From a virus, in the IMG/VR virus record IMGVR_UViG_3300012936_000200, positions 1-22,375 of that record: a DNA stretch of 22,375 nt. One strand, 5' to 3'. Position 1 is the stretch's first letter. Each line of letters opens with the position of its first letter. The position numbers and the translations under genes are program-made. The notes beneath the pieces were generated by a model. It did no database searches. It was not told the DNA's origin and was given only the letters and a program-made list of their open reading frames with translations. Below, in pieces: positions 1,074-15,804 of this stretch.

Positions 1074-1520
1074 ATGGACACTAATAAATTTGTAAAAGCG
1101 TTAAAACTCTTGATAAAAGAAGAGGTTCGTAAGGAAGTTGAAAAACAAAAAACAACTATCAGAGAATCTGTTATTAAAGAGATGAGTACGCCTCAAACTA
1201 AAACTCAAAGTAAAAAACCAAAAGTCAAGTTTAAGAGTAACAAGTTTTCTGACTTGTTAAATGAAACAGTAGACACTTGGGATACTATGGGTGGACAAAC
1301 CTTGACATCACAACACGCTCAAGGTATGGACAGACAAACCATGGCATCGATGATGGGTCTTAGTAACCAACCAACACAACAATCAATGATACCACAGACT
1401 GATTCTGATGGTAGAGAAGTTGATGTAAACGCAGTGATGAACTCAGGTGTTGGTCAAGCATTAACAAGAGACTATTCTCAGTTAATGAAAGCAATAGATA
1501 CAAAGAAGGGTAGAGTATAA
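1074..1520 (+). CDS. Small charged phage protein, unknown function, upstream of gp25
   Basis: The product has 148 residues. The ATG at 1074 is chosen because the frame upstream, back to a TTG at 1020, is made of AT-rich non-coding-like codons and contains the ATATTTATATAA element. The first ~40 residues are highly charged and should form a helix or coiled coil (FVKALKLLIKEEVRKEVEKQ). A Lys-rich linker follows (residues ~45-60), then a Met/Gln/Thr-rich tail (MDRQTMASMMGLSNQPTQQS) that is probably disordered. The stop TAA overlaps the gp25 ATG by one base (TAATG), indicating translational coupling. I associate small proteins starting KFVKALK..IREEV with this position in marine T4-like phages, but no function is known to me. 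A scaffold or baseplate accessory role is inference. Confidence 0.7.
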   Translation: MDTNKFVKALKLLIKEEVRKEVEKQKTTIRESVIKEMSTPQTKTQSKKPKVKFKSNKFSDLLNETVDTWDTMGGQTLTSQHAQGMDRQTMASMMGLSNQPTQQSMIPQTDSDGREVDVNAVMNSGVGQALTRDYSQLMKAIDTKKGRV

Positions 1521-1957
1521 TGTCAAGAAAACGTGAAGAGAAAAAGTATCATCCATTAGACCTACAGAAAAATGTAGGTGTGGGTATCCCACTACCATTA
1601 GGTGGTGTACCTATTTTTGCTACTACATTCACGACAGAAGAACAGGCAATATCCAACTTAAAAAACTTATTATTAACAAGAAAAGGGGAAAGACCGTTTC
1701 AACCATTATTTGGAACCGATGTCCCATCTTTCTTGTTTGAGAACATAACAAAAAAATTACTTGACAACCTGAGAGCAGGGTTACAAAAGGATATAGAATT
1801 TTGGTTACCCTACATTCAAATGAAAGAGATTATAGTAGATGATTTACCCAATGAGAACAGAATTAATATTTCTTTTTCGTTTTCTGTAGGAGAAAGTGGA
1901 GCAAATCAGATAATTATATTAAACGTAGACGAACAGGGTAGTCTTTCAATCGCATAG
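1520..1957 (+). CDS. 25: Baseplate wedge subunit, gp25-like
   Basis: This 145-residue protein matches the T4 gp25 family in size and layout (T4 gp25 is about 130 residues). The family's conserved core is visible: a helix EQAISNLKNLLLTRKGERPF (residues ~41-60) carrying the L-T-x-x-GER motif, followed by QPLFGTDV. It ends with an amphipathic strand region (RINISFSFSVGES) and a terminal beta hairpin. In T4, gp25 joins gp6 and gp53 in the wedge and helps start sheath polymerisation; homologues occur in contractile injection systems. The gene overlaps the preceding stop by one base and is followed nine bases later by gp6, the classic 25-6 order. The extra ~20 residues at the N-terminus are Lys/Arg-rich. 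Confidence 0.93.
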   Translation: MSRKREEKKYHPLDLQKNVGVGIPLPLGGVPIFATTFTTEEQAISNLKNLLLTRKGERPFQPLFGTDVPSFLFENITKKLLDNLRAGLQKDIEFWLPYIQMKEIIVDDLPNENRINISFSFSVGESGANQIIILNVDEQGSLSIA

Positions 1958-1966
1958 GGTTAGAAT

Positions 1967-3880
1967 ATGGCAGACAAAATAAAAAAGGAAGTAAAACTTT
2001 TAGGAAGAGATTTTGGAGAAATAAGAAATAATCTTGTTGACTTCACAAAAACTTACTTCCCTCAAACATATAATGATTTCAACGAATCATCGCCGGGGAT
2101 GATGATATTGGAACTTGCGTCATATGTTGGTGATGTACTTTCTTATTATACTGATGTTCAGTTAAGAGAATCTTTATTAGAAGAAGCACAGGAAAAGAAA
2201 AATATATTTACGATTGCACAAGCAGTAGGATATAAACCAAAACTAAATGTTCCTGCTACAACAACACTAAGTGTTTTCCAAATCGTACCATCAATAGGTA
2301 GTGGTGATAGTGTAAGACCCGATTGGAGATATGCACTTACAATCAAAGAGGGAGCGACTGTAACAGCAGAATCAAACGGTGAAGTTGAATTTAGTACAAA
2401 TCAAAAAGTTAGATTTAATTACTCATCTTCATTCGACCCTACTGAAGTTTCCGTTTATCAGATTAACGATAACAACAACGAACCAATTAAATATCTTTTA
2501 AAGAAGTATGTAAAAGCAACAAGTGGTAAAGAAAAGACACAAACTTTTACATTTGGCGCCCCAAAGATATATGACAAAATTAGATTACAAGACGAAGACG
2601 GTCTTATAGATGTAATCAAAATATCCGATGATGACGGTGAAGATTGGACAAAGGTAGATTACCTTGGTCAAGACACCGTATTCGAAGAAACTCCAAACAC
2701 TGAAGAGTACTCATTAGAGTATTCAGCATATAGTTCTGATACACCTTCGTTACTAAAATTAAAAAAAGTACCGAAGAGATATATTACAAGAGTATCAGAT
2801 GAAGGTGAAATACATATTCAGTTTGGAGCAGGTATATCTGCAAACGCAGACGAAGAACTACTTCCAAACCCTGACAACGTTGGGTCTGCATTATATAATG
2901 CGAGTGGTAACCTAAATCAAGGTTTAGACCCATCGAACTTTCTGTATTCTAAAACATATGGAGTGGCTCCTGCTAACCAAACACTAACAGTTAGATATCG
3001 AGTAAGTAAAGGTGTATCTGATAACGTTCCAAGTAATGACTTAAATCAAATTGCGAACGTTGAGATTGAAACATCAAACTTAGGTCTCGATACAGCACTA
3101 TTCAACCAATCAAGAAACTCAATTGCAATGAATAACGAAGCAGCAGCAGTTGGTGGTAAGTTCGAAGAGACAGTTGAAGAAGTAAGAGAAAATGCAAAAG
3201 CATACTTTGGAGCACAAAACAGGTCAGTAACAAGAGAAGACTATGTAGTTAGAACTTATGCAATGCCACCACAATTTGGTTCGGTAGCAAAAGCATTTGT
3301 CGCTCCTGATTTCCAAATACAAACAATATTAGATGACGCAGGAAAACCAATACCAAATCCACTTGGTCTAAACTTCTATGTATTAGGATATGATGCAAAT
3401 AAAAAAATTACAGAACTAAATACCGCAACAAAACAAAACCTTGCGAATTATTTATCGTTCTATAGAATACTTACAGATGCGATTAATATCAAAAACGCAT
3501 ACATTGTAAATATAGGAATCGATTTCGAGATAGTAGTAAAACCAAATTACAATTCAAATGAAATACTTTTAAAATGTATAAGTAAATTAAGAGATTATTT
3601 CAAAGTAGACAATCAACAAATAAATCAACCGATATTATTGTCGGATGTATATGTCATGTTAGATGACGTGGACGGTGTACAAAGTGTTGTAAGACCTGAT
3701 AAGGACGGACTTGGTGGATTACAAATTTCCAACAAGTACGGTGGAACCTACTCACCGAGAAGATACGACATGAAATACGCAACGAGAAATGGTGTAATCT
3801 ATCCACCTAAAGACCCGTCTATATTTGAGGTTAAATATCCTGATACAGACATTAGAGGTAGAGTGGTACCATTATTTTAA
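1967..3880 (+). CDS. 6: Baseplate wedge subunit, gp6-like (baseplate J family)
   Basis: The product has 637 residues, close to T4 gp6 (660). The N-terminus carries the family's signature helical block: FNESSPGMMILELASYVGDV, then LSYYTDVQLRESLLEEAQ and IAQAVGYKPK (residues ~38-91). A beta-rich middle follows. A conserved baseplate-J-like segment, NRSVTREDYVVRTYAMPP, lies near residues 417-434. The C-terminal domain includes ILLSDVYVMLDDVDGVQSV (~555-573). Gp6 dimers tie the wedges into the ring around the hub and are the structural core of T4-type baseplates. The gene directly follows gp25 and has complete termini, so it looks intact. Identification is strong; details of partner contacts are family knowledge. 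Confidence 0.93.
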   Translation: MADKIKKEVKLLGRDFGEIRNNLVDFTKTYFPQTYNDFNESSPGMMILELASYVGDVLSYYTDVQLRESLLEEAQEKKNIFTIAQAVGYKPKLNVPATTTLSVFQIVPSIGSGDSVRPDWRYALTIKEGATVTAESNGEVEFSTNQKVRFNYSSSFDPTEVSVYQINDNNNEPIKYLLKKYVKATSGKEKTQTFTFGAPKIYDKIRLQDEDGLIDVIKISDDDGEDWTKVDYLGQDTVFEETPNTEEYSLEYSAYSSDTPSLLKLKKVPKRYITRVSDEGEIHIQFGAGISANADEELLPNPDNVGSALYNASGNLNQGLDPSNFLYSKTYGVAPANQTLTVRYRVSKGVSDNVPSNDLNQIANVEIETSNLGLDTALFNQSRNSIAMNNEAAAVGGKFEETVEEVRENAKAYFGAQNRSVTREDYVVRTYAMPPQFGSVAKAFVAPDFQIQTILDDAGKPIPNPLGLNFYVLGYDANKKITELNTATKQNLANYLSFYRILTDAINIKNAYIVNIGIDFEIVVKPNYNSNEILLKCISKLRDYFKVDNQQINQPILLSDVYVMLDDVDGVQSVVRPDKDGLGGLQISNKYGGTYSPRRYDMKYATRNGVIYPPKDPSIFEVKYPDTDIRGRVVPLF

Positions 3881-3890
3881 GAGGTGAAAA

Positions 3891-5966
3891 ATGATATATA
3901 GAATATACCCAAATAAAGACAACACTATCTACGAGAAGGACAACCTAAAACTTCAGAATACAGGTAAAGACCAAATTCTCGAAGTAGGTAAGTTCTATGG
4001 TGATGACAACATAACATTTGTTGGAAACAGTAGAATACTTCTTGGTTTCGATTTGACACCAATATCATCCTCTGTAGCAGACGGAACAATCACGTCACCT
4101 CAATATAGATTAAGATTAGAAAATATAGAAAGTTCGGAACTACAAGACGACTTTGATTTATTCGTATACCCACTAAAAGAATCATGGAATGAGGGACTTG
4201 GTCAGTTCAATGATTCACCAAAGAGTGAACACGCATCAAATTGGGTATTTAGAATCAGTGGTTCAAGATGGGATGTAGATAACTCTACAGTAGGAAAAGC
4301 AGTAGATGTAGATACACTAAACTCATTAAACGCATATTACAACTTCGCAGGAAGTCTTGGTAACTTTGAATTAGTTGACAAGATAAAAGGTTCAAATGGA
4401 GATGACCCATTACTATTTGTATCAGGTGGTAGATTGATTATGTCAGCATCAGAATTTAGTGGTGGTACAGCAAACTTATCATCTTCATTAGACTCGGGGT
4501 CAGTATACAATATTCAGTTTGATTTTAACAGAGAATCATTATCAGGAGTTGATTTCAATGTAATCAATCCAAGTGGGTCTCTATTAAACTCAGACATTGT
4601 TGGGTTCCAAGAATCATTAGTATCAACAGCAACATATAAAATGGCATTTACGGCAAGTATGCCAGGAGTTCATAAGTTTCAGTTTACATATTTTGACGAT
4701 GACGGTTCAAACGGGTCAGAAGGAAACATAGATAACTTTTTCTTCTTTACAACAACAGACCCTAACACTTTGGTGTTTGACCAATTCGCATCAAACCTAA
4801 CTGACCTACCTTCAAGTTACATAGTAAATGAGGGGATTGAAAACTTAGATGGTATCACAGGTTCAGCAGAAGTATTGAATAATACATTGACCATGACATC
4901 ATCAAAGTTTGGTGGAGCAACATTAAACAGAAAGTTTAGTCTACAAGAAAACGCAAACTATACAGCGAGTTTTGATATAGTGCCAGGAAACTTCCCTGAT
5001 ACATATGGTGATAACACTCCATTAGGAGTTGAGTTTACAGTACAAACACCAACGGGTAGATTAGTAGACATAAATGACTTTACAGGTTATACAAGATATA
5101 TAACGTCAAGTATGACTCAAAGAATTATATTCCAAGCAAGAGAATCAGGACAACACAACTTCCGATGGTCTTATTACGCAAGTGGTAGTGATTTACAAGC
5201 AAGTGCATCGTTAGATAACTTCTTAATAAAATCATTTGACCATGATACAACAAGTGCAAGATTTAATGATAACGACTATGAAGCACATTTTAATAAAACA
5301 TCAGGGGGTGGTACATGGTTTACTTCTTCATTTGGAAGTGGAAAGCATTACTATCAATCTTTTAATAGAAATACTGATAACATCGATGTCGAAGTAACCG
5401 ACTATGTATCAGAATGGATTGACGGAACAAGAACAAATAACGGATTCATAATTAAGAAATCTAAAACAGATGAGAACTCAACAATCAACTTCGGTAAGAT
5501 TAAATTCTTCTCAACTGATACACATACAATATATCCACCTGTATTAGAAGCAAGGTGGGATGACTCTTCATTTGATACAGGGTCATTAGACGCATTAAGT
5601 GGTGACGATTTAATCATTTACGTTAAAAATTTACAAACTGAATACAAAGAATCGTCAAAAGGAAAAATAAGAGTATTCGGTAGAGAAAGATATCCTAATA
5701 GAAGTTTCTCTACAAGTCCATTGAAAACGGTAAAGTATTTACCTTCAACTTCATATTACTCAGTAGTTGACGCAGACACGGAACAAGTGATTGTTCCATT
5801 CGATACTAACTACACAAAGTTAAGTTGTGATAGTAGTGGTAATTACTTTAATTTTTGGTTCAACGGATTACAACCCGAAAGATTTTACAAATTTTGTTTT
5901 AGAGTTGACCAAGGTGGTAACATTAGATACTACGATGACAACTTTTACTTTAAGGTAGTTAGATAA
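3891..5966 (+). CDS. Large virion protein with DNRLRE-like jelly roll and two inserted carbohydrate-binding-like sandwiches
   Basis: The product has 691 residues. A strong Shine-Dalgarno sequence (GAGGTGA, 3881-3887) precedes the ATG. Residues 1-120 resemble the start of a DNRLRE/TGF-beta-propeptide-like jelly roll, including SWNEGLGQFNDSP...SNWVF. Residues ~455-555 look like the second half of the same fold (GGGTWFTSS, then VEVTDYVSEWIDGTRTNNGF). Between them sit two similar beta-sandwich units (~175-288 and ~325-449). Each has a strand pattern like a carbohydrate-binding module and each closes with a DNF motif (IDNFFFF and LDNFLIK). The last ~100 residues form a further beta domain. Its place after gp6 suggests a baseplate-peripheral or fibre-network protein with a possible surface-sugar-binding role. 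Domain calls are by eye; overall structural function is likely. Confidence 0.75.
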   Translation: MIYRIYPNKDNTIYEKDNLKLQNTGKDQILEVGKFYGDDNITFVGNSRILLGFDLTPISSSVADGTITSPQYRLRLENIESSELQDDFDLFVYPLKESWNEGLGQFNDSPKSEHASNWVFRISGSRWDVDNSTVGKAVDVDTLNSLNAYYNFAGSLGNFELVDKIKGSNGDDPLLFVSGGRLIMSASEFSGGTANLSSSLDSGSVYNIQFDFNRESLSGVDFNVINPSGSLLNSDIVGFQESLVSTATYKMAFTASMPGVHKFQFTYFDDDGSNGSEGNIDNFFFFTTTDPNTLVFDQFASNLTDLPSSYIVNEGIENLDGITGSAEVLNNTLTMTSSKFGGATLNRKFSLQENANYTASFDIVPGNFPDTYGDNTPLGVEFTVQTPTGRLVDINDFTGYTRYITSSMTQRIIFQARESGQHNFRWSYYASGSDLQASASLDNFLIKSFDHDTTSARFNDNDYEAHFNKTSGGGTWFTSSFGSGKHYYQSFNRNTDNIDVEVTDYVSEWIDGTRTNNGFIIKKSKTDENSTINFGKIKFFSTDTHTIYPPVLEARWDDSSFDTGSLDALSGDDLIIYVKNLQTEYKESSKGKIRVFGRERYPNRSFSTSPLKTVKYLPSTSYYSVVDADTEQVIVPFDTNYTKLSCDSSGNYFNFWFNGLQPERFYKFCFRVDQGGNIRYYDDNFYFKVVR

Positions 5967-6502
5967 TGAGCGAACAAACAACAACACCAACAATAGTTGG
6001 AGTACAAGGTGATAGAGAACTGAAAAGAAATGTCAGAGGACAAGTCGTGTCCTATGAAATCCCTTCACCTGATTCTGTACCGCCGGGAACCGCACTTCCA
6101 AACTATAGTAAAGTTTATATAGAAGGTCAAGAAGGAACGGGTACTACTCCTGAAAGATTTAGTCTAACTCGAGTATTGGAAGGTCTTGACTCTTCAATAA
6201 GTGAATTAAGATTTAATAGTATTAATGTACGAAGTAATGTAAACGTAAGAACATCCATAGCGGGTACAATAGCAGGTGACCAAGTAGTAACAAGTGGATT
6301 CAATCCAGCAGGTGTAACGACACCAAATCTACCATCCCTTCCATCTTCAGGGCAAGCAGCATTCGGTACCGCAGGAACTACAGGTGGGTTGATAAACGGT
6401 GGTGGTGATGGAAGTCCGATTGGAGTCGGTGGATATGACTCTTATGGTTTTAATGCAGATTCGTTTGGGCCAGGATTAAACTTTAACATTAACCAACTAT
6501 AA
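5966..6502 (+). CDS. Small Gly-rich phage protein, unknown, probably structural
   Basis: This 178-residue protein's ATG overlaps the stop of the preceding gene by one base, so the two are probably translated together. The N-terminal half has a short Pro-rich segment (YEIPSPDSVPPGTALPNYSK) and a predicted helix/strand pair (SLTRVLEGLDSSISELRF, residues 66-83). From about residue 108 to the end it is low-complexity Gly/Ser/Asn/Phe-rich (TGGLINGGGDGSPIGVGGYD), likely disordered. No enzyme motif is visible. Similar Gly-rich tails occur at the ends of two other structural proteins in this window, in the gene at 7082 (C-terminal) and the gene at 12277 (N-terminal). It may be a baseplate linker or accessory protein, but that is inference from context only. 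Confidence 0.65.
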   Translation: MSEQTTTPTIVGVQGDRELKRNVRGQVVSYEIPSPDSVPPGTALPNYSKVYIEGQEGTGTTPERFSLTRVLEGLDSSISELRFNSINVRSNVNVRTSIAGTIAGDQVVTSGFNPAGVTTPNLPSLPSSGQAAFGTAGTTGGLINGGGDGSPIGVGGYDSYGFNADSFGPGLNFNINQL

Positions 6503-6513
6503 ATGAGAATAAT

Positions 6514-7095
6514 ATGTTTGAATTTACAATTGGAAATATAAAAACTTTCACACCTTGGGAACAACCAAGGTTTGATACGTTTAGAGGTTGGTGGAATAGA
6601 TTCAACAGAAGTGTTGACCTATCAGACTATAGAGTATATTTAGTTGGTTCATTCGCAGAAAATATTTATGGAGCAAGTATTCCAACAATGGATGTTGATG
6701 TTGTACTTAGAAACGAAGTAAAAGACCATACAAAATTAAAACATATTTTAGATACAGCAATGATATTAGGATTTGAATCTAAAATGTTTATAGATATAAA
6801 GTGGAGTTGTGAAACTCTTTGGACTGAACATCTTGGTATTAGAAAGAAGTGTCAAAGACCTTCTAAGTTAAGTAAGTTTACAAGAATTAAAAACCACAAC
6901 TATAGTATCAAGACAGTTAATGGTCAAACTTTAGAAAAAAGATTTTTACCAAAATCAATGAATTGTAAAGAGATTATAGATGGTCTGTATGAAGTAACAG
7001 GATATGATTACATGACAACATCTAAAGTAAATAAACGTATGAGAGAAAAAACTTATACAGGAAAATATTTGGACTTGAAGAATGCCTTTAAATAG
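6514..7095 (+). CDS. Nucleotidyltransferase-fold (DNA polymerase beta superfamily) protein
   Basis: This 193-residue protein carries the full acidic signature of the pol-beta-type nucleotidyltransferase superfamily. A strand-turn VYLVGSFAENIYG supplies the G45-S46 pair. TMDVDVVL follows with D60 and D62 as the metal-binding D-x-D, and KMFIDIKW carries the third acid, D94. Members transfer a nucleotide (commonly AMP) to proteins, RNA or small molecules. The C-terminal ~95 residues are basic and Trp/Cys/Lys-rich (ETLWTEHLGIRKKCQRPS), unlike the short MNT-type enzymes, and I cannot place them; they might bind nucleic acid. Residues 1-40 hold a Trp-rich segment (FRGWWNRFNRS). The gene lies between structural baseplate genes, and its end overlaps the next ATG by 14 bases. 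Substrate and role are unknown: tRNA, host-protein or virion-protein modification and defence-related activity all remain open. Confidence 0.72.
   Translation: MFEFTIGNIKTFTPWEQPRFDTFRGWWNRFNRSVDLSDYRVYLVGSFAENIYGASIPTMDVDVVLRNEVKDHTKLKHILDTAMILGFESKMFIDIKWSCETLWTEHLGIRKKCQRPSKLSKFTRIKNHNYSIKTVNGQTLEKRFLPKSMNCKEIIDGLYEVTGYDYMTTSKVNKRMREKTYTGKYLDLKNAFK
6552..6571. repeat. Inverted repeat just inside the nucleotidyltransferase gene
   Basis: ACCTTGG and CCAAGGT form a 7-bp perfect stem around the loop GAACAA, about 40 bases after the ATG at 6514. It would fold in the mRNA near the start of the gene and could dampen translation. It is also the type of short repeat expected by chance, so it is listed as a weak candidate. 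Confidence 0.35.
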
Positions 7096-10000
7096 ATTTA
7101 CAAATATAGAAGAGATAGAAAGTAAACAACCTGCCTTTGGTGACGTGTTTACATCTCAAGACCTTGCTCTAATTTCAGAAGGAGCAACATATCCTCAATT
7201 AGACAGTGAGGACGTAACAGGTATTGATGGGATTACAAGTCCAAGTTTGGAAGTTCACTACTACACACCACAAGGAGCATACTTAGGTGGTAAAACTAAT
7301 TCACCAATTACAATAGTTGGTGACGCAGGTAGTAAAACTATTTTTGTAAGGCCTGGTCAGGACATAAGAGAGGCAGGTTATACGAGTGGAACATACAAGT
7401 TAGTATACAACTTTTTACACCAAGCAGCATCAGGATTGAAAATAACAGAAATTTCACCAAACAGAAAAGAAGTTAAGATTCAATCAAATAATATAAATGG
7501 ACTTACAAATCTATATCAACTTTATAGTAGACCAAATAATCTTGTAGGAAACACATTTTCAGGTGACGATACATTTTTACCTGCTCAATTAAACTTTGGT
7601 GGTAATCAACTATATCCAATTGTAAATGCCGCATTTATGGGACAACGTGGTGGACAGTATGGTGCTATACTACCATTCCCTGTAGGTGACGCATCAGTAC
7701 AAGATAATAATAGAAATACAATATTTGTTCCCGTAACACAAGGTCCGTTAGAAGGTGGATTTGGAGATGACAACACAACTCCATTTGTTACATTCGCAGA
7801 AATAGACTTAGATGACACTATTCAAGGTGGTGTTAGTTTCTTCCCTATAACAAAATATAGATTAACAGGTATTTTTGATAGATTTAAACTTAGAAGAAAT
7901 GCAGACACGTCACTAAGTTGGTTAAGAAAAAATGAAGTATATACCACACCCGAGGAACTTCCATCAGATGTAGACGCTTCGACAAGAAACGCAATGTTAG
8001 AACCAACGTATACAACGGTTAACATAAACTCATTAGAGGTTAACTACAATGCGATGGACCTGAATCTAAATACAGTAAACGAGGTAATTGTTAAATTAAA
8101 TCAAGAATTACCATCTACTGTAAACGTTAACGATTCACTTGAAATATCATTAGAGTTACACAAACCATATGTCGAAAACATAATTCTATATGAAGCACTT
8201 GAAGACCCTAATCAAATTCCGTTCTTTTCAAATCCAAACTTTAATATTGACTTGGGTGAAAACAAAGGAGCAGCAGGAGAGTTTGAATCTTGGGATTCTT
8301 TATTAGACGCAGGTCTTCCAACAAAACAACAGATTGTAGATAAGTTTTTCAGTGGTTCACTTGGAAACGTAAAACTAAATATAGATTATTCTGATTTACA
8401 AAACTATATACACTTCTCATCTGCAGAAGAAAGAGTCAGAAACTTTAAATATAAACTACAACTTGTAGAAGGATATAATGCTAGAATTACAACTCTAACA
8501 GGAGTAAGTGGTTCTGAAGCAATAACAAATATTTCGGCGTCAACAAACAGAAGAGACGCGTTAATTGGTGGGTTTGATGATTTTGAGTATTGGTTATATT
8601 ACAATCATGAATCATCGCTATACACACACTTTAGTTCTTCTGAATATAGAATAGACCCATATCCAAAAGAATTAAAGAATCCACATACATTGTATGATTT
8701 GACATCATCACAAGGTACTAATTGGTTTAACAATACAATTGAGACTGCAAGAACATACGACGCATTTAACGATAGTAAGTTAACAGAAATGATTCCTTCA
8801 AATTTAGCGTTTGATGAAAAGAATGAAGAGTATGTTGAGTTTGTAAAAATGTTAGGTCAACATTTTGATATATTCTATAACTACATTCAGGAAATTACAC
8901 AAATCAATGACAGAGAAGAACATCCTAAAGATGGTATGGCACAAGACCTAATAGAGGTTATTGCAAATTCTTTCGGTTGGAAACTATTTAACGGATACTC
9001 TGATACTTCATTGTGGACATATGAATTTGGAGTTAGTCAAGAAGGTAATCCAATACAATCAGGTTCATTATATTCTAAACCAACAAAAGAGATTGTACAC
9101 GAAACTTGGAGAAGATTATTAAACAATGTGCCGGGAATATACAAAAGTAAAGGTACAGCACGTTCATTTAAAACATTGATATCTTCTTATGGTATTCCAA
9201 GTGCATTTTTAAAGATTAGAGAATACGGTGGACCAAGAATAAAAGACACTAAAGAGATATACGAACACGAAAGATATATCTACAAACTACAATTAGATGG
9301 GTTAACAAATGGAGAACACCCTTGGGATGTTATCAATGGTAGTAGACCGAAGACTATTGAAATAATAGCAAAACTACCACAGGGTAATCATACAATCATG
9401 AGACATCCAAATTTCTCTGGCACTGCAAAAGTTTATGATTTAATGTGGGAATACAACCAATTAACAGGAAAAGCAAGATGGGTTGTTAAAGAGAATAATT
9501 TAGAGACTGTAGCAACAACTCCATATGTTCCTTACAAACAAGAAAGAAATGTTGTAGTAGCAATATCATCAGGGTCAGGTGGATATACACTTAACTCAGC
9601 ATGGGTTGACGATTTTGGATTCACATTAGCAAACCCAACCGCATCTTGGACTACGGGTAGTCTTGACCACTGTTGGAGTGGTGTAGGTGGAGGCGCATAT
9701 GGTCTCGCGATACCTTATGTTAATGTAGGAAGTGATACTACGTCAAGTGTTCAAGAGGTAAGATACTACAAGAAACAGTTATCAAATGAAGTCATACTTG
9801 GTCATGCAGCAAATACTGACGCATATTATTCTGATGATAATACAACTGATTTAGATATCGATACATCATATGAGAATCTTCTATATAGAATTTTCCCTGA
9901 TAGTACATACAATAATATTAGTGGTTCTATATTATCAAGACATCCTAATCAACAGTTTACCGCATCAGCAACGGGTCTTATATTATCAGCATCTTTTGAC

Positions 10001-11557
10001 AGAACTAACAGAGCAGACCCAGCAAGATTGTCAGGTGAAGTAGATACTCAGTTTGTTTCTATTCCATCTGTTGGGGCATTAAACTTAACAAATAAAAAAG
10101 TAAGAATAGAATCTTCATCTTTAAGAGGACCATTACAGTTTGATAGGTCAAATGAAATTAGTCAATACGATGAAGCACCTCTTGATTCTAATTTATTAGG
10201 AACTTACTTCTCTACAACAGATACAATTAACTTTGATATCTACGCGTCTGAAGGTTACTTTGACGCAGGTGATTTGGTTGGTGATACTGATGTTAGAAAT
10301 AATGACGGATATGATTTATTAGATTTTAGAGCAAGAAACTATTTCCAAAAATATACAGGAAGAACAGCACTTCAGATTCAATTAGATATGTTATCAAGAT
10401 ACGATATGTCTATCTTTGATTCAATGAAACAATTAGTTCCAGCAAGAGCCGATTGGCATAAAGGTATTTTAATTGAACCACACATTTTTGAAAGAAATAA
10501 TTATTTAAGACCACAAGGGATATCATTTACACAAAATCAATATGAGAGTAGTGGAATAGCAACTTTAAATATAATATCAGGTTCTTACTTAACTTATACA
10601 AGTAGTATAACAAAAGACGCATTTAAACCGTCTGTTTACAAATACACAGATATTCAAAGACTTAGTTCTTCAGGTGATTATTTTACAGATACAAATCCAT
10701 ATTGGGAATATTCACCAACAGGTTCTACTATATTAGACGCAAGACTTTCAAAGACAGCATTAGAACCAAAGTATTTTTATTCAAATGATATAAGTGCATC
10801 AAAAGGTCCTGAGTTCGCAAGTTCCGCATCATTCCACTTTGCAAGAGTTCAGGATGATAGACTAACAGGTGGTTTACTTAATTTATATTACAATGGTTGT
10901 AGTATATCAAGTACATCTTTAACAGCAAATTCACCTGATACGCCTGACAATACTCCTGTAATTGAAGTTAGTATTGTTAACGATACTAAGTTAGTAATGA
11001 ACACTACAAAAGATATTGACCTTGAGTCAGGGGGTAAAGACCCTAAAGTTATTGGTATCATTCCATCCGAAGATTTATTATCAGTTCAAAAATATATCGA
11101 TAAGAATGAAGCACCAAATACTTCAGTTTCAAAAGGTGTAGATAAACAAATAGAAGACGACTTGTTTAGAAATCCACCAGCACTACCATTATTACCTCGA
11201 ACAAGAAAGAGACCAATAGGTAGAATAGCAGGTGGTGATAAAACAATTTCATTTGATTTTATACCATCTATTGGAAATACAAGAAAGAATGTTACATTAA
11301 ATGTTGACGCAACAAATAGTGTATTAAATAACGCTGTAAGAAAACAAATGAGAAGACAGTACAGAAGTGGTGGATTAGGTTCTAACACTATGGGTGGAAA
11401 TGTATCCAATGTAGGATTTGGAGTAGGACCACGTTCATCAAGAAGTAATACAGCAACTTTTGGAGCATTAAACACTTCAAAAGGGTCATCTTCTGATATA
11501 AATCAAAACAGAAGAAAGAACCAAAGAGGGGGTATCTTTACAAACAGAGGTACTTAA
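7082..11557 (+). CDS. Giant baseplate protein with P2-gpI-like core and lectin-like domain
   Basis: At 1491 residues this is the longest product in the window. Residues 1-550 are beta-rich virion-type sequence. Residues ~560-720 are helical and resemble the P2 gpI / tail protein I fold, including WRRLLNNVPGIYKSKGTA (~675-692) with the characteristic KGT turn. Residues ~775-915 look like a concanavalin/LamG-type sandwich ending VQEVRYYKKQLSNEVILGH. A conserved-looking helix block, MSIFDSMKQLVPARADWHKG, starts at residue 1109. The last ~110 residues are a basic, Arg/Ser/Gly/Asn-rich disordered tail (QMRRQYRSGG, NQNRRKNQRGG). Its position downstream of gp6 suggests that it replaces gp7 or a similar wedge component. 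It overlaps the nucleotidyltransferase stop by 14 bases. Structural role is confident; equating it with T4 gp7 is not shown. Confidence 0.8.
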   Translation: MPLNRFTNIEEIESKQPAFGDVFTSQDLALISEGATYPQLDSEDVTGIDGITSPSLEVHYYTPQGAYLGGKTNSPITIVGDAGSKTIFVRPGQDIREAGYTSGTYKLVYNFLHQAASGLKITEISPNRKEVKIQSNNINGLTNLYQLYSRPNNLVGNTFSGDDTFLPAQLNFGGNQLYPIVNAAFMGQRGGQYGAILPFPVGDASVQDNNRNTIFVPVTQGPLEGGFGDDNTTPFVTFAEIDLDDTIQGGVSFFPITKYRLTGIFDRFKLRRNADTSLSWLRKNEVYTTPEELPSDVDASTRNAMLEPTYTTVNINSLEVNYNAMDLNLNTVNEVIVKLNQELPSTVNVNDSLEISLELHKPYVENIILYEALEDPNQIPFFSNPNFNIDLGENKGAAGEFESWDSLLDAGLPTKQQIVDKFFSGSLGNVKLNIDYSDLQNYIHFSSAEERVRNFKYKLQLVEGYNARITTLTGVSGSEAITNISASTNRRDALIGGFDDFEYWLYYNHESSLYTHFSSSEYRIDPYPKELKNPHTLYDLTSSQGTNWFNNTIETARTYDAFNDSKLTEMIPSNLAFDEKNEEYVEFVKMLGQHFDIFYNYIQEITQINDREEHPKDGMAQDLIEVIANSFGWKLFNGYSDTSLWTYEFGVSQEGNPIQSGSLYSKPTKEIVHETWRRLLNNVPGIYKSKGTARSFKTLISSYGIPSAFLKIREYGGPRIKDTKEIYEHERYIYKLQLDGLTNGEHPWDVINGSRPKTIEIIAKLPQGNHTIMRHPNFSGTAKVYDLMWEYNQLTGKARWVVKENNLETVATTPYVPYKQERNVVVAISSGSGGYTLNSAWVDDFGFTLANPTASWTTGSLDHCWSGVGGGAYGLAIPYVNVGSDTTSSVQEVRYYKKQLSNEVILGHAANTDAYYSDDNTTDLDIDTSYENLLYRIFPDSTYNNISGSILSRHPNQQFTASATGLILSASFDRTNRADPARLSGEVDTQFVSIPSVGALNLTNKKVRIESSSLRGPLQFDRSNEISQYDEAPLDSNLLGTYFSTTDTINFDIYASEGYFDAGDLVGDTDVRNNDGYDLLDFRARNYFQKYTGRTALQIQLDMLSRYDMSIFDSMKQLVPARADWHKGILIEPHIFERNNYLRPQGISFTQNQYESSGIATLNIISGSYLTYTSSITKDAFKPSVYKYTDIQRLSSSGDYFTDTNPYWEYSPTGSTILDARLSKTALEPKYFYSNDISASKGPEFASSASFHFARVQDDRLTGGLLNLYYNGCSISSTSLTANSPDTPDNTPVIEVSIVNDTKLVMNTTKDIDLESGGKDPKVIGIIPSEDLLSVQKYIDKNEAPNTSVSKGVDKQIEDDLFRNPPALPLLPRTRKRPIGRIAGGDKTISFDFIPSIGNTRKNVTLNVDATNSVLNNAVRKQMRRQYRSGGLGSNTMGGNVSNVGFGVGPRSSRSNTATFGALNTSKGSSSDINQNRRKNQRGGIFTNRGT

Positions 11558-13639: not shown

Positions 13640-15367
13640 ATGGCAAAAGTATTCAAAAGGATATTCAATCAGGGAATAACCACACGTCCCTACAAAGCTC
13701 ATAAGAGATATGAGGTGACGGATGTAAACTATTCGTCATCATTCGAGATATCTACGTTTAGAGCAATATCCCCATTTAATACTAAGTTAGAAGTTTCTAA
13801 ATCAAAACACCAAGGTATCGAATACGATAATACTATCCTAACAGGTTCAGGTGCAATATCAAGAGACTTAAATAAGGTTCCACAAAAAATTATGTGGAGT
13901 ACCCTTAACAATCTATGTTTTAAGGATTATGGTGATAAACATTTATATTCAACAGCATCAATTGTTTCGATACCACAAAATAAATTTGGTTTAGGAATCA
14001 AACCTGAGTCAGTAACTATTTCAGATTTCTCAAGAGCAGCAGGTTCTGCGTCATTACATTTAAGTGAATCAAAATCTGATAATAACTGTGGTGTTTTATA
14101 TGATACAGCAATAGACCACACTAAATTTGTAGACGATAGATATTTAAAATTCTATTTAGGATTTAATAAGTATCCACACAATACAATCTATAAAATTCAA
14201 AAAGACGAAGGACCATTTGGTAATAATCTTCAATGTAAAAATGTAACCATAGTAAATGGAATAGATACAACAGGTGAAGCAACGGCAAGTGGTTATGGTG
14301 GATTCTTACAAACATCATCATCACTTTACATACCTGCAGCAGGTAGTAATACAGACTTCTTTAATTCAGCACAAAATTGGTCAATATCCACATGGGTTAA
14401 ATTACCACCAAGTCAGTCTATGTTAAGACACACAAAGAATACAATATTAGCAAAATCATCTCAACAGTATAATCCATATCTTGACTATAACCCAAGTTCA
14501 ACATCAAAAGGAACTACGTTTGGGTCAACTATGGTACGAGAAGCACCTAACTATCCATTTAAGATAAGTGTATTTAATCAGACAGCAGGTTCTAAGAATG
14601 GAAAATTAGAATTTCAGTTCTTTGACGGTAGAGAAGATAAGAGAGAATCATTAACAGTAACCTCTTCAAAAATTAATGATAACAGTTGGCATAATATTAT
14701 TGTAAATCATACGGGTGGTCAGAGTGGTGGAACCATGAAGTGGTATCTTGATGGAACTCAAGTTGGTGGTAACGTAGGAACTCATGTAAGGAGACCGATA
14801 GGTAATGAAGATGATATAACTATAATGTGTCACGATGGAATGGGTGATACAGGTACAAGTGGTTCGATTGATGAAATAAGATTTTACAATACAAACCTAT
14901 CGAGTGATAATATAGCATCATTAAATAACAATCATGTTATTAGTGGTTCAGCATATCAAACAAGAAATGTTGGATATACATTTTATCAAAAAGGATTAAT
15001 AGTAGTAACAGACCCAAGACCAAAATATCAAAATTGTTTTTTAGGTGATGGTGATTTTAACTACACAGGAAAAGGTTTTGAATTTACATATAATTCTACT
15101 AAACAAATAGAACAACAATCTATATTATGTGAAATAGGACGAGGTGAGTTTAATGTATCATCAAACAATACTCTTAGAATAACACAAGATGAAAACGAAC
15201 CAACTTTAAGAAACTTTGTTACAAGTTCTGATTTCAGACCATATGTAACACAAATAGGATTATATAATGACAATGGTGAATTACTCGCCGTTGGTAAAAT
15301 GGGTTCACCCATGAAGAAGAGACAAGATGTTGATGTAACAGTTGACGTTAGATTAGATTTTGAATAG
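13640..15367 (+). CDS. Virion protein with LamG/concanavalin-like lectin domain
   Basis: The product has 575 residues. The central part (~220-435) shows the hallmarks of a LamG-like jelly roll: an NWSISTWVKLP strand, KLEFQFFDG, INDNSWHNIIVNH, MKWYLDGTQVGG, then SGSIDEIRFYNTNLSSDNI at the end. Such domains bind glycans and are common in adhesion proteins. The C-terminal ~75 residues (GEFNVSSNNTLRI, then IGLYNDNGELLAVGKMGSP, then VDVRLDFE) match the C-terminus of the preceding gene. The N-terminal ~200 residues include IMWSTLNNLCF and lack a recognised fold. The most reasonable reading is a particle-surface or receptor-contact protein. The stop is two bases before the resolvase ATG, so the structural and DNA-metabolism genes are transcriptionally joined. 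Confidence 0.78.
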   Translation: MAKVFKRIFNQGITTRPYKAHKRYEVTDVNYSSSFEISTFRAISPFNTKLEVSKSKHQGIEYDNTILTGSGAISRDLNKVPQKIMWSTLNNLCFKDYGDKHLYSTASIVSIPQNKFGLGIKPESVTISDFSRAAGSASLHLSESKSDNNCGVLYDTAIDHTKFVDDRYLKFYLGFNKYPHNTIYKIQKDEGPFGNNLQCKNVTIVNGIDTTGEATASGYGGFLQTSSSLYIPAAGSNTDFFNSAQNWSISTWVKLPPSQSMLRHTKNTILAKSSQQYNPYLDYNPSSTSKGTTFGSTMVREAPNYPFKISVFNQTAGSKNGKLEFQFFDGREDKRESLTVTSSKINDNSWHNIIVNHTGGQSGGTMKWYLDGTQVGGNVGTHVRRPIGNEDDITIMCHDGMGDTGTSGSIDEIRFYNTNLSSDNIASLNNNHVISGSAYQTRNVGYTFYQKGLIVVTDPRPKYQNCFLGDGDFNYTGKGFEFTYNSTKQIEQQSILCEIGRGEFNVSSNNTLRITQDENEPTLRNFVTSSDFRPYVTQIGLYNDNGELLAVGKMGSPMKKRQDVDVTVDVRLDFE

Positions 15368-15369
15368 TT

Positions 15370-15804
15370 ATGAATAAAAAAGGAAATTGGTCCCACATCC
15401 AAAAAATGAAGGGACACAAAAGTGGGTTGGAAACTCGTATAGACGAACAACTCAAAGCACAAGGAATAGATGGTGAATATGAACAACACGAAGTATCATA
15501 TACAATACCAGCAACACACCACACTTACAAACCCGATTTTAGATTACCCAATGGTATCTACATTGAATCAAAGGGTTGGTTTTTACCTGAGGATAGAAAG
15601 AAACATTTACTCATTAGAGAACAAAATCCTGAAATGGATTTACGATTTGTTTTACAGTCCCCAAACGGTAAAATATACAAAGGTTCTAAAACCACTTACG
15701 CCGAATGGTGTGAGAAGAATGGTTTCAAATGGGCTAAAAAAGAAATACCCCAAGAATGGATTGAGGAAAAACAAACAGAAAATTTCTTTGATTATTCAAA
15801 ATAA
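15370..15804 (+). CDS. Holliday junction resolvase, T7 endonuclease I family
   Basis: The 144-residue product is nearly the length of T7 gp3 (149) and follows it almost throughout. SGLETRIDEQL carries E21. TYKPDFRLPNGIYIESKGW carries D56, E66 and K68, which correspond to the T7 catalytic set E20, D55, E65 and K67. The conserved DRKKHLLIREQNPEMDLRFV and KIYKGSKTTYAEWCEKNGFK segments follow, then IPQEWIEEK. These enzymes are domain-swapped homodimers that nick four-way and branched DNA symmetrically, clearing recombination intermediates before packaging and, in T7, degrading host DNA. All four catalytic residues are present, so it should be active. It starts the DNA-metabolism island directly after a virion gene. 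T4 itself uses the unrelated gp49 for this step. Confidence 0.95.
   Translation: MNKKGNWSHIQKMKGHKSGLETRIDEQLKAQGIDGEYEQHEVSYTIPATHHTYKPDFRLPNGIYIESKGWFLPEDRKKHLLIREQNPEMDLRFVLQSPNGKIYKGSKTTYAEWCEKNGFKWAKKEIPQEWIEEKQTENFFDYSK

Follow-up and report, generated by a model that had tools for sequence, protein, structure and literature searches.

Nucleotidyltransferases (NTases) of the pol-beta superfamily control what becomes of toxins, tRNAs, antibiotics and second messengers, and several of them take part in the conflict between phage and host. CCA-adding enzymes act on tRNA and other members of the superfamily on small molecules, and the canonical order of the fold is a strand, the GS motif, a helix, a strand carrying DxD, a further helix and a strand carrying the third D. 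MNT antitoxins AMPylate HEPN toxins (PMC7641770, PMC11586414), and MenT toxins extend tRNA acceptor stems (PMC10435456). The superfamily has been defined by an hG[G/S] motif followed by 9-13 residues and then DhD (PMC3985639). Here we describe an NTase-family gene at 6514..7095 on the plus strand of a linear fragment, a viral record of 22,375 bases which is referred to as the window. The gene has an ATG start and encodes 193 amino acids plus stop, as delimited by the open reading frame (ORF) list, its orthologues and dN/dS. We consider it probable that the product is a soluble pol-beta NTase of an undescribed family, which was acquired once and modifies a macromolecule inside the infected cell.

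The active-site residues proposed in the initial annotation (G45-S46, D60-x-D62 and D94) were found at these positions in the translation. G45-S46 (6646..6651, plus strand) makes up the nucleotide-binding motif I (hG[GSA]), where strand 40-44 ends, D60-V61-D62 (6691..6699, plus strand) forms the DhD motif predicted to bind metal, with which strand 60-66 begins, and D94 (6793..6795, plus strand) is the third predicted catalytic acid, an hDh residue placed in strand 92-98, on a later strand as is usual for the pol-beta superfamily. The VGS-x13-DVD arrangement agrees with the hG[G/S] and DhD definition, the second position being S, A or G across the family, and the spacing between GS and DxD, which is 13 in the window protein, is 8-14 across relatives. 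The pattern hG[GS]x9-14[DE]h[DE]h...h[DE]h occurred once in the NTase, in none of the 15 other window proteins scanned and in 43 of 20,000 shuffles of the window NTase. Loss of the acidic residues in close homologues was looked for, and instead D60, D62 and D94, together with G45, did not vary among the 15 homologues aligned, whose identity goes down to about 30%. The catalytic residues also align in a remote relative, q155, which has kept both Asp residues of DxD as well as D94. Position 46 varies, being Ala in L006, L009, L010, L013 and L014 and Gly in q155. The equivalent residue can be Ser or Ala among the pol-beta relatives of AbiEii, and the AbiEii Ala mutant stays active (PMC3985639), data with which Ala46 in five orthologues is compatible.

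An AlphaFold2 model (mee32024e4550) was built on an alignment of 15 sequences which included remote relatives of about 30% identity, and reached a pLDDT of 85.8 and a pTM of 0.85. The fold assignment rests on this second alignment because the model from 10 close sequences (69-92% identity) was poor, with a pLDDT of 42. The NTase core (residues 1-103; 6514..6822, plus strand) had block pLDDT values of 87-97 over residues 1-100 and was modelled as two N-terminal strands, helix 20-33, strand 40-44, helix 45-51 starting at G45-S46, strand 60-66 beginning with D60-x-D62, helix 72-88 and strand 92-98 with D94. Judging from this topology D60, D62 and D94 would cluster in space. A Foldseek search of the PDB with the model gave no match at E <= 0.001, and several top matches were unrelated folds. 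The best-supported PDB match was the MNT antitoxin 8xeo (probability 0.97, rmsd 3.1 over 81 columns), with further matches to HEPN-MNT 8xeh (0.80), CdnE (0.77), a CCA-adding enzyme (0.66) and AAD(9) (0.60); other NTases among the matches were TM1012 and LnuA, and the CCA-enzyme structures were 5hc9 and 3h37. In BFVD a full-length match was obtained to A0A516ML51 (E 1.5e-10, TM 0.73), a viral protein of 192 aa which resembles the window protein in structure over its full length although the two share only 18% identity. The NTase fold claimed earlier was thus borne out by a confident model with the canonical strand and helix order, the invariant triad, NTase structures recurring among the PDB matches, the BFVD match and weak matches to NTP_transf_2 and DUF6932.

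None of the annotation databases named the window protein above cut-off. Its sole Pfam match was DUF6932 (E 0.15, 13 bits, residues 17-103). The family consensus matched PF01909 NTP_transf_2 with an E-value of 0.0013 and 19.5 bits, which does not reach the cut-off of 21 bits, and the orthologue L109 matched the same profile over the motif region (E 0.007, 17.2 bits). When whole phage records were scanned with PF01909, the window-type NTase gene was the sole match in G005, G010, G011 and G012. The remote relative L140 matched DUF6932 (PF22014) over the motif region with 25.5 bits (E 2e-5), short of the cut-off of 27 bits. No meaningful match to the window protein or its relatives was obtained among named phages, plasmids, sequences of solved structures or NCBIfam, and AbiEii and the PADLOC defence families gave no usable match. 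Two scans of 85,000 prokaryote genomes with short exact peptide patterns, which distant cellular relatives can escape, found no relative. Among the candidates raised by DNA patterns, glycosyltransferase-like proteins (L101 and others) were chance matches and were ruled out by sequence, and L138 and L139 were discarded as matches without an NTase-like ORF.

The basic C-terminal region of about 95 residues pointed out in the initial annotation was found to be a beta-rich domain of about 90 residues (residues 104-193; 6823..7092, plus strand) with a pI of 10.0 and a net charge of +13. In the model it follows a low-confidence linker at about 108-114 and consists of five strands (122-163) and a helix (166-177); a Pfam search with this domain gave no match. 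The helix carries K171-x3-R175 (7024..7038, plus strand), part of a family motif GL[Y/W/H]...K...R...Y which aligns in the remote relatives L137, L140 and q155 too. Both K171 and R175 were invariant in 15 of 15 aligned homologues, and their equivalents align in q155. The net charge of the C-terminal domain is +9 to +14 within the clade and +3 in L137 and L140. The basic character of the domain mildly favours a macromolecular acceptor.

The ORF itself and its 14-base overlap with the next baseplate gene were as first described, the overlap lying at 7082..7095 on the plus strand, and this arrangement makes translational coupling of the two genes possible. The downstream gene (7082..11557, plus strand) encodes a giant baseplate-region protein of 1491 aa, recognized from its ORF and from gene-order comparison, and the upstream ORF (5966..6502, plus strand) a low-complexity protein of 178 aa without a Pfam match. 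The 178-aa protein is fast-changing, with 58% identity in L002 vs 95% for the neighbouring 691-aa protein, and its N-terminal part alone is recognisable in sister phages. Further upstream are a gp25 baseplate wedge protein (1520..1957, plus strand; Pfam GPW_gp25, E 6.6e-10) and a gp6-like baseplate wedge protein (1967..3880, plus strand), which matches the 'baseplate wedge protein' of Flavobacterium phage immuto and served as the clade marker in a tree. From ORFs and Pfam matches the window also encodes the 691-aa protein, further tail-region proteins and endonuclease I, in addition to primase-like and SbcCD/gp46-47-like proteins whose names we have given partly from our own reading of the sequences. 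One of the tail-region proteins (13640-15367, 575 aa) has a concanavalin-A-like lectin domain (Pfam Laminin_G_3, E 2.7e-11), and its C-terminal ~95 residues are about 33% identical to the end of the upstream 448-aa protein. The T7-like endonuclease I (15370-15804; Pfam E 1.5e-55) lies directly 3' of the tail genes of this large phage. The operon position of the NTase gene suggests late expression. Occurrences of the T4-like late-promoter motifs TATAAATA and CTAAATA in the window were not above chance.

The gene was found in 22 IMG/VR records, the window and 21 others, with 49-100% identity; because the collections were scanned by short peptide or DNA patterns this family range is a lower bound. 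Conservation of gene order beside the giant baseplate gene was checked as had been proposed, and the order gp25, gp6, 691 aa, 178 aa, NTase and giant gene was the same wherever a contig extended far enough, the overlap of the NTase with the giant gene being kept in 7 of the 7 records compared. The NTase gene is under purifying selection, with dN/dS of about 0.1-0.25 in most pairs and 0.42 in the most distant pair, where dS is less reliable. Contigs of NTase-bearing phages reach 180.8 kb, indicating large tailed phages.

A gp6 profile scan returned 80 loci. Loci which span the slot and whose gp6 is at or below about 71% identity have no NTase there, and in the sister loci inspected the giant gene comes immediately after the 178-like gene. 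The gp6 tree groups the NTase-bearing phages in a single clade (support 0.98), and the adjacent clade has no NTase in the slot. Microcystis phage Mel-JY01, Flavobacterium phage immuto and the uncultured LR756508 gave no NTase match anywhere in their records. The gene is therefore fixed in one clade and does not accompany the baseplate operon throughout the related phages. A single acquisition at the base of the clade is the simplest reading; one loss in the sister clade instead of one gain is an alternative which this distribution does not distinguish from it.

Remote relatives were found in other settings. L137, which is about 29% identical to the window protein, is flanked by a protein weakly similar to tail fibre J on one side and a tape-measure protein on the other, and L140 (about 30% identity) is antisense to structural genes and has a 4-nt overlap with an FkbM methyltransferase gene. 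The baseplate slot of the sister phage G019 is empty, and the sole family member in this phage is q155, a protein of 182 aa (L155 1372-1920, the same as L167 7693-8241) located in the replication module and supported by a profile E-value of 2.9e-6 and a tblastn E-value of 2e-6 against a 180-kb relative. The genes beside q155 we take to be 5'-exonuclease-like and helicase-like, with presumed RecA-like and ribonucleotide-reductase-like genes close by. With relatives in a replication module, in an FkbM operon and beside a tape-measure gene, the NTase family at large is not confined to baseplate operons.

Several further loci were recorded in these phages. At L156 (14789-15963, minus strand, and 5743-6309, plus strand) a phage has an NTase-FkbM methyltransferase pair antisense to its structural genes, and a sulfotransferase-like gene. 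In G007, the 180.8-kb relative, an unusual multi-enzyme ORF of 1302 aa (L166 10537-14445) lies 3' of the tail-fibre gene; its domains are cytidylyltransferase-like (Pfam E 1.7e-5) and a poly(A)-polymerase/CCA head (E 4.8e-31) with an RNA-binding region, and its C-terminal part contains an EKTDG stretch resembling ligase motif I. In G030, a more distant relative, a different NTase-like protein of 261 aa (TGSNVNYNWTDTSDIDLH; L169 1369-2154) starts on the final base of an open frame of 455 aa and has weak Polbeta and NTP_transf_2 matches. Separate NTase genes may be a recurring feature of such phages.

From the absence of the gene in sister phages and the non-baseplate contexts of its relatives, it is most likely that the product is a soluble enzyme which the baseplate operon carries, and not a conserved baseplate component. 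The ancestor of the clade would have gained the gene once, between the 178-aa and giant baseplate genes, and selection would have retained it thereafter. The NTase would be translated together with the giant baseplate protein, presumably late in infection, and its soluble state is likewise presumed. By analogy with the superfamily, D60, D62 and D94 may hold two Mg2+ ions, and G45-S46 together with K171 and R175 may hold the triphosphate of the NTP, from which NMP would be transferred to an acceptor. K171 and R175 could play a role like that of the C-terminal Lys/Arg motif of AbiEii (PMC3985639). The acceptor would most likely be a macromolecule, either a host protein, as for MNT acting on HEPN toxins, or an RNA end, as for CCA enzymes and MenT. 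By such analogies we would guess at protein and RNA with about the same likelihood, and would place a small molecule or glycan somewhat behind them. The modification would then support phage production or blunt a host defence.

Because the likelihoods which we attach to the different acceptors overlap with that of the preferred explanation, they do not add up to one. An MNT-like counter-toxin, which would silence a host toxin (of HEPN type or another) or a defence protein by AMPylating it, is a tentative possibility: an MNT antitoxin was the best-supported PDB match and AMPylation of HEPN toxins by such antitoxins is established (PMC7641770, PMC11586414), but no HEPN-like gene was recognized beside the NTase in the window, the spacing of 13 between GS and DxD (8-14 in the family) differs from the GSX10DXD of MNT, and the C-terminal domain is an addition. 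An RNA-directed NTase, which would extend the 3' ends of tRNA or the ends of other RNAs and so repair or inactivate host or phage tRNA, is possible to a similar, limited degree. It would make use of a basic C-terminal domain with K/R on its helix and would suit both the CCA-adding enzymes among the top structural matches and the three tRNAs encoded by the related phage G007; against this, no CCA-enzyme domains were found beyond the core, another gene of G007 already supplies a head domain of the poly(A)-polymerase/CCA type, and the C-terminal charge falls to just +3 in L137 and L140. It is quite unlikely that the enzyme modifies a small molecule or glycan, be it a sugar, a lipid head group or an antibiotic, in the course of surface or glycan modification. 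The 4-nt overlap of L140 with an FkbM methyltransferase gene, a sulfotransferase-like gene in the same phage, and AAD(9) and LnuA among the structural matches point in this direction, whereas neither the window clade nor G019 has such a partner and the basic domain suggests a macromolecular acceptor.

The location of the gene had led to the proposal that the enzyme modifies a virion protein or is packaged, and this proposal did not find support, as sister operons lack the NTase and relatives occur in non-baseplate contexts. A virion-associated enzyme, whether it attaches to a protein of the baseplate or tail, AMPylates one, or enters the host as packaged cargo of the virion, would explain the strict slot and the overlap with the giant gene throughout the clade, the position of L137 between tail-fibre-J-like and tape-measure genes, and the basic C-terminal domain. 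We nevertheless regard it as unlikely, given that sister phages share this baseplate operon, with a giant protein of 44-49% identity, yet have no NTase in the slot, that the only family member of G019 is in its replication module, that L140 is antisense to structural genes, and that gene overlaps are common to any compact phage operon. The more specific version, in which the NTase is made with the giant baseplate protein, carried by the tail and delivered into the host or active there on entry, seems very improbable; we know of no precedent for this type of phage effector enzyme. Least credible of all is an inactive NTase-fold protein which serves the baseplate operon as an adaptor or structural part, although the fixed position beside a structural gene could be cited for it. 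Because G45 and the D60/D62/D94 triad are invariant to about 30% identity and across gene contexts, we infer an active enzyme and not a structural relic.

The family combines an intact predicted active site with a single clade-wide slot, is found here in uncultured phages only and is nameless in databases. It provides a defined target for a new nucleotide-transfer reaction, for which a diverse set of orthologues has already been pinpointed, along with D60 and D62 as the positions for catalytically dead controls.

The described systems each share some of the features of this protein. MNT antitoxins have an NTase core with GS...DxD in common with it and include the best-supported PDB match (8xeo), but they have GSX10DXD (PMC7641770) where the window protein has a spacing of 13, they adjoin a HEPN toxin gene where the window gene has the 178-aa and 1491-aa proteins as neighbours, and they lack its extra C-terminal beta domain. 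The AbiEii/DUF1814 toxins are similar in their long hG[GS]-DhD spacing and their C-terminal Lys/Arg motif (PMC3985639); their spacing, however, is 15 vs 13 in the window protein (PMC3985639), and they have a motif II Arg, a +DxxD motif IV and, for AbiEii, an AbiEi partner, while the window protein has no Arg between motif I and DhD and no [KR]DxxD, and its gene has no such partner. CCA-adding enzymes and the poly(A) polymerase head were represented among the structural matches to the model by 5hc9 and 3h37, whereas no profile match to the domains of either was obtained and the window protein has a single small core. DUF6932 (PF22014) is a family of unknown function, to which L140 comes near cut-off while the window gene falls far below it. 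On the evidence of sequence and model, the window gene is best described as a new uncharacterised family within the known pol-beta NTase superfamily.
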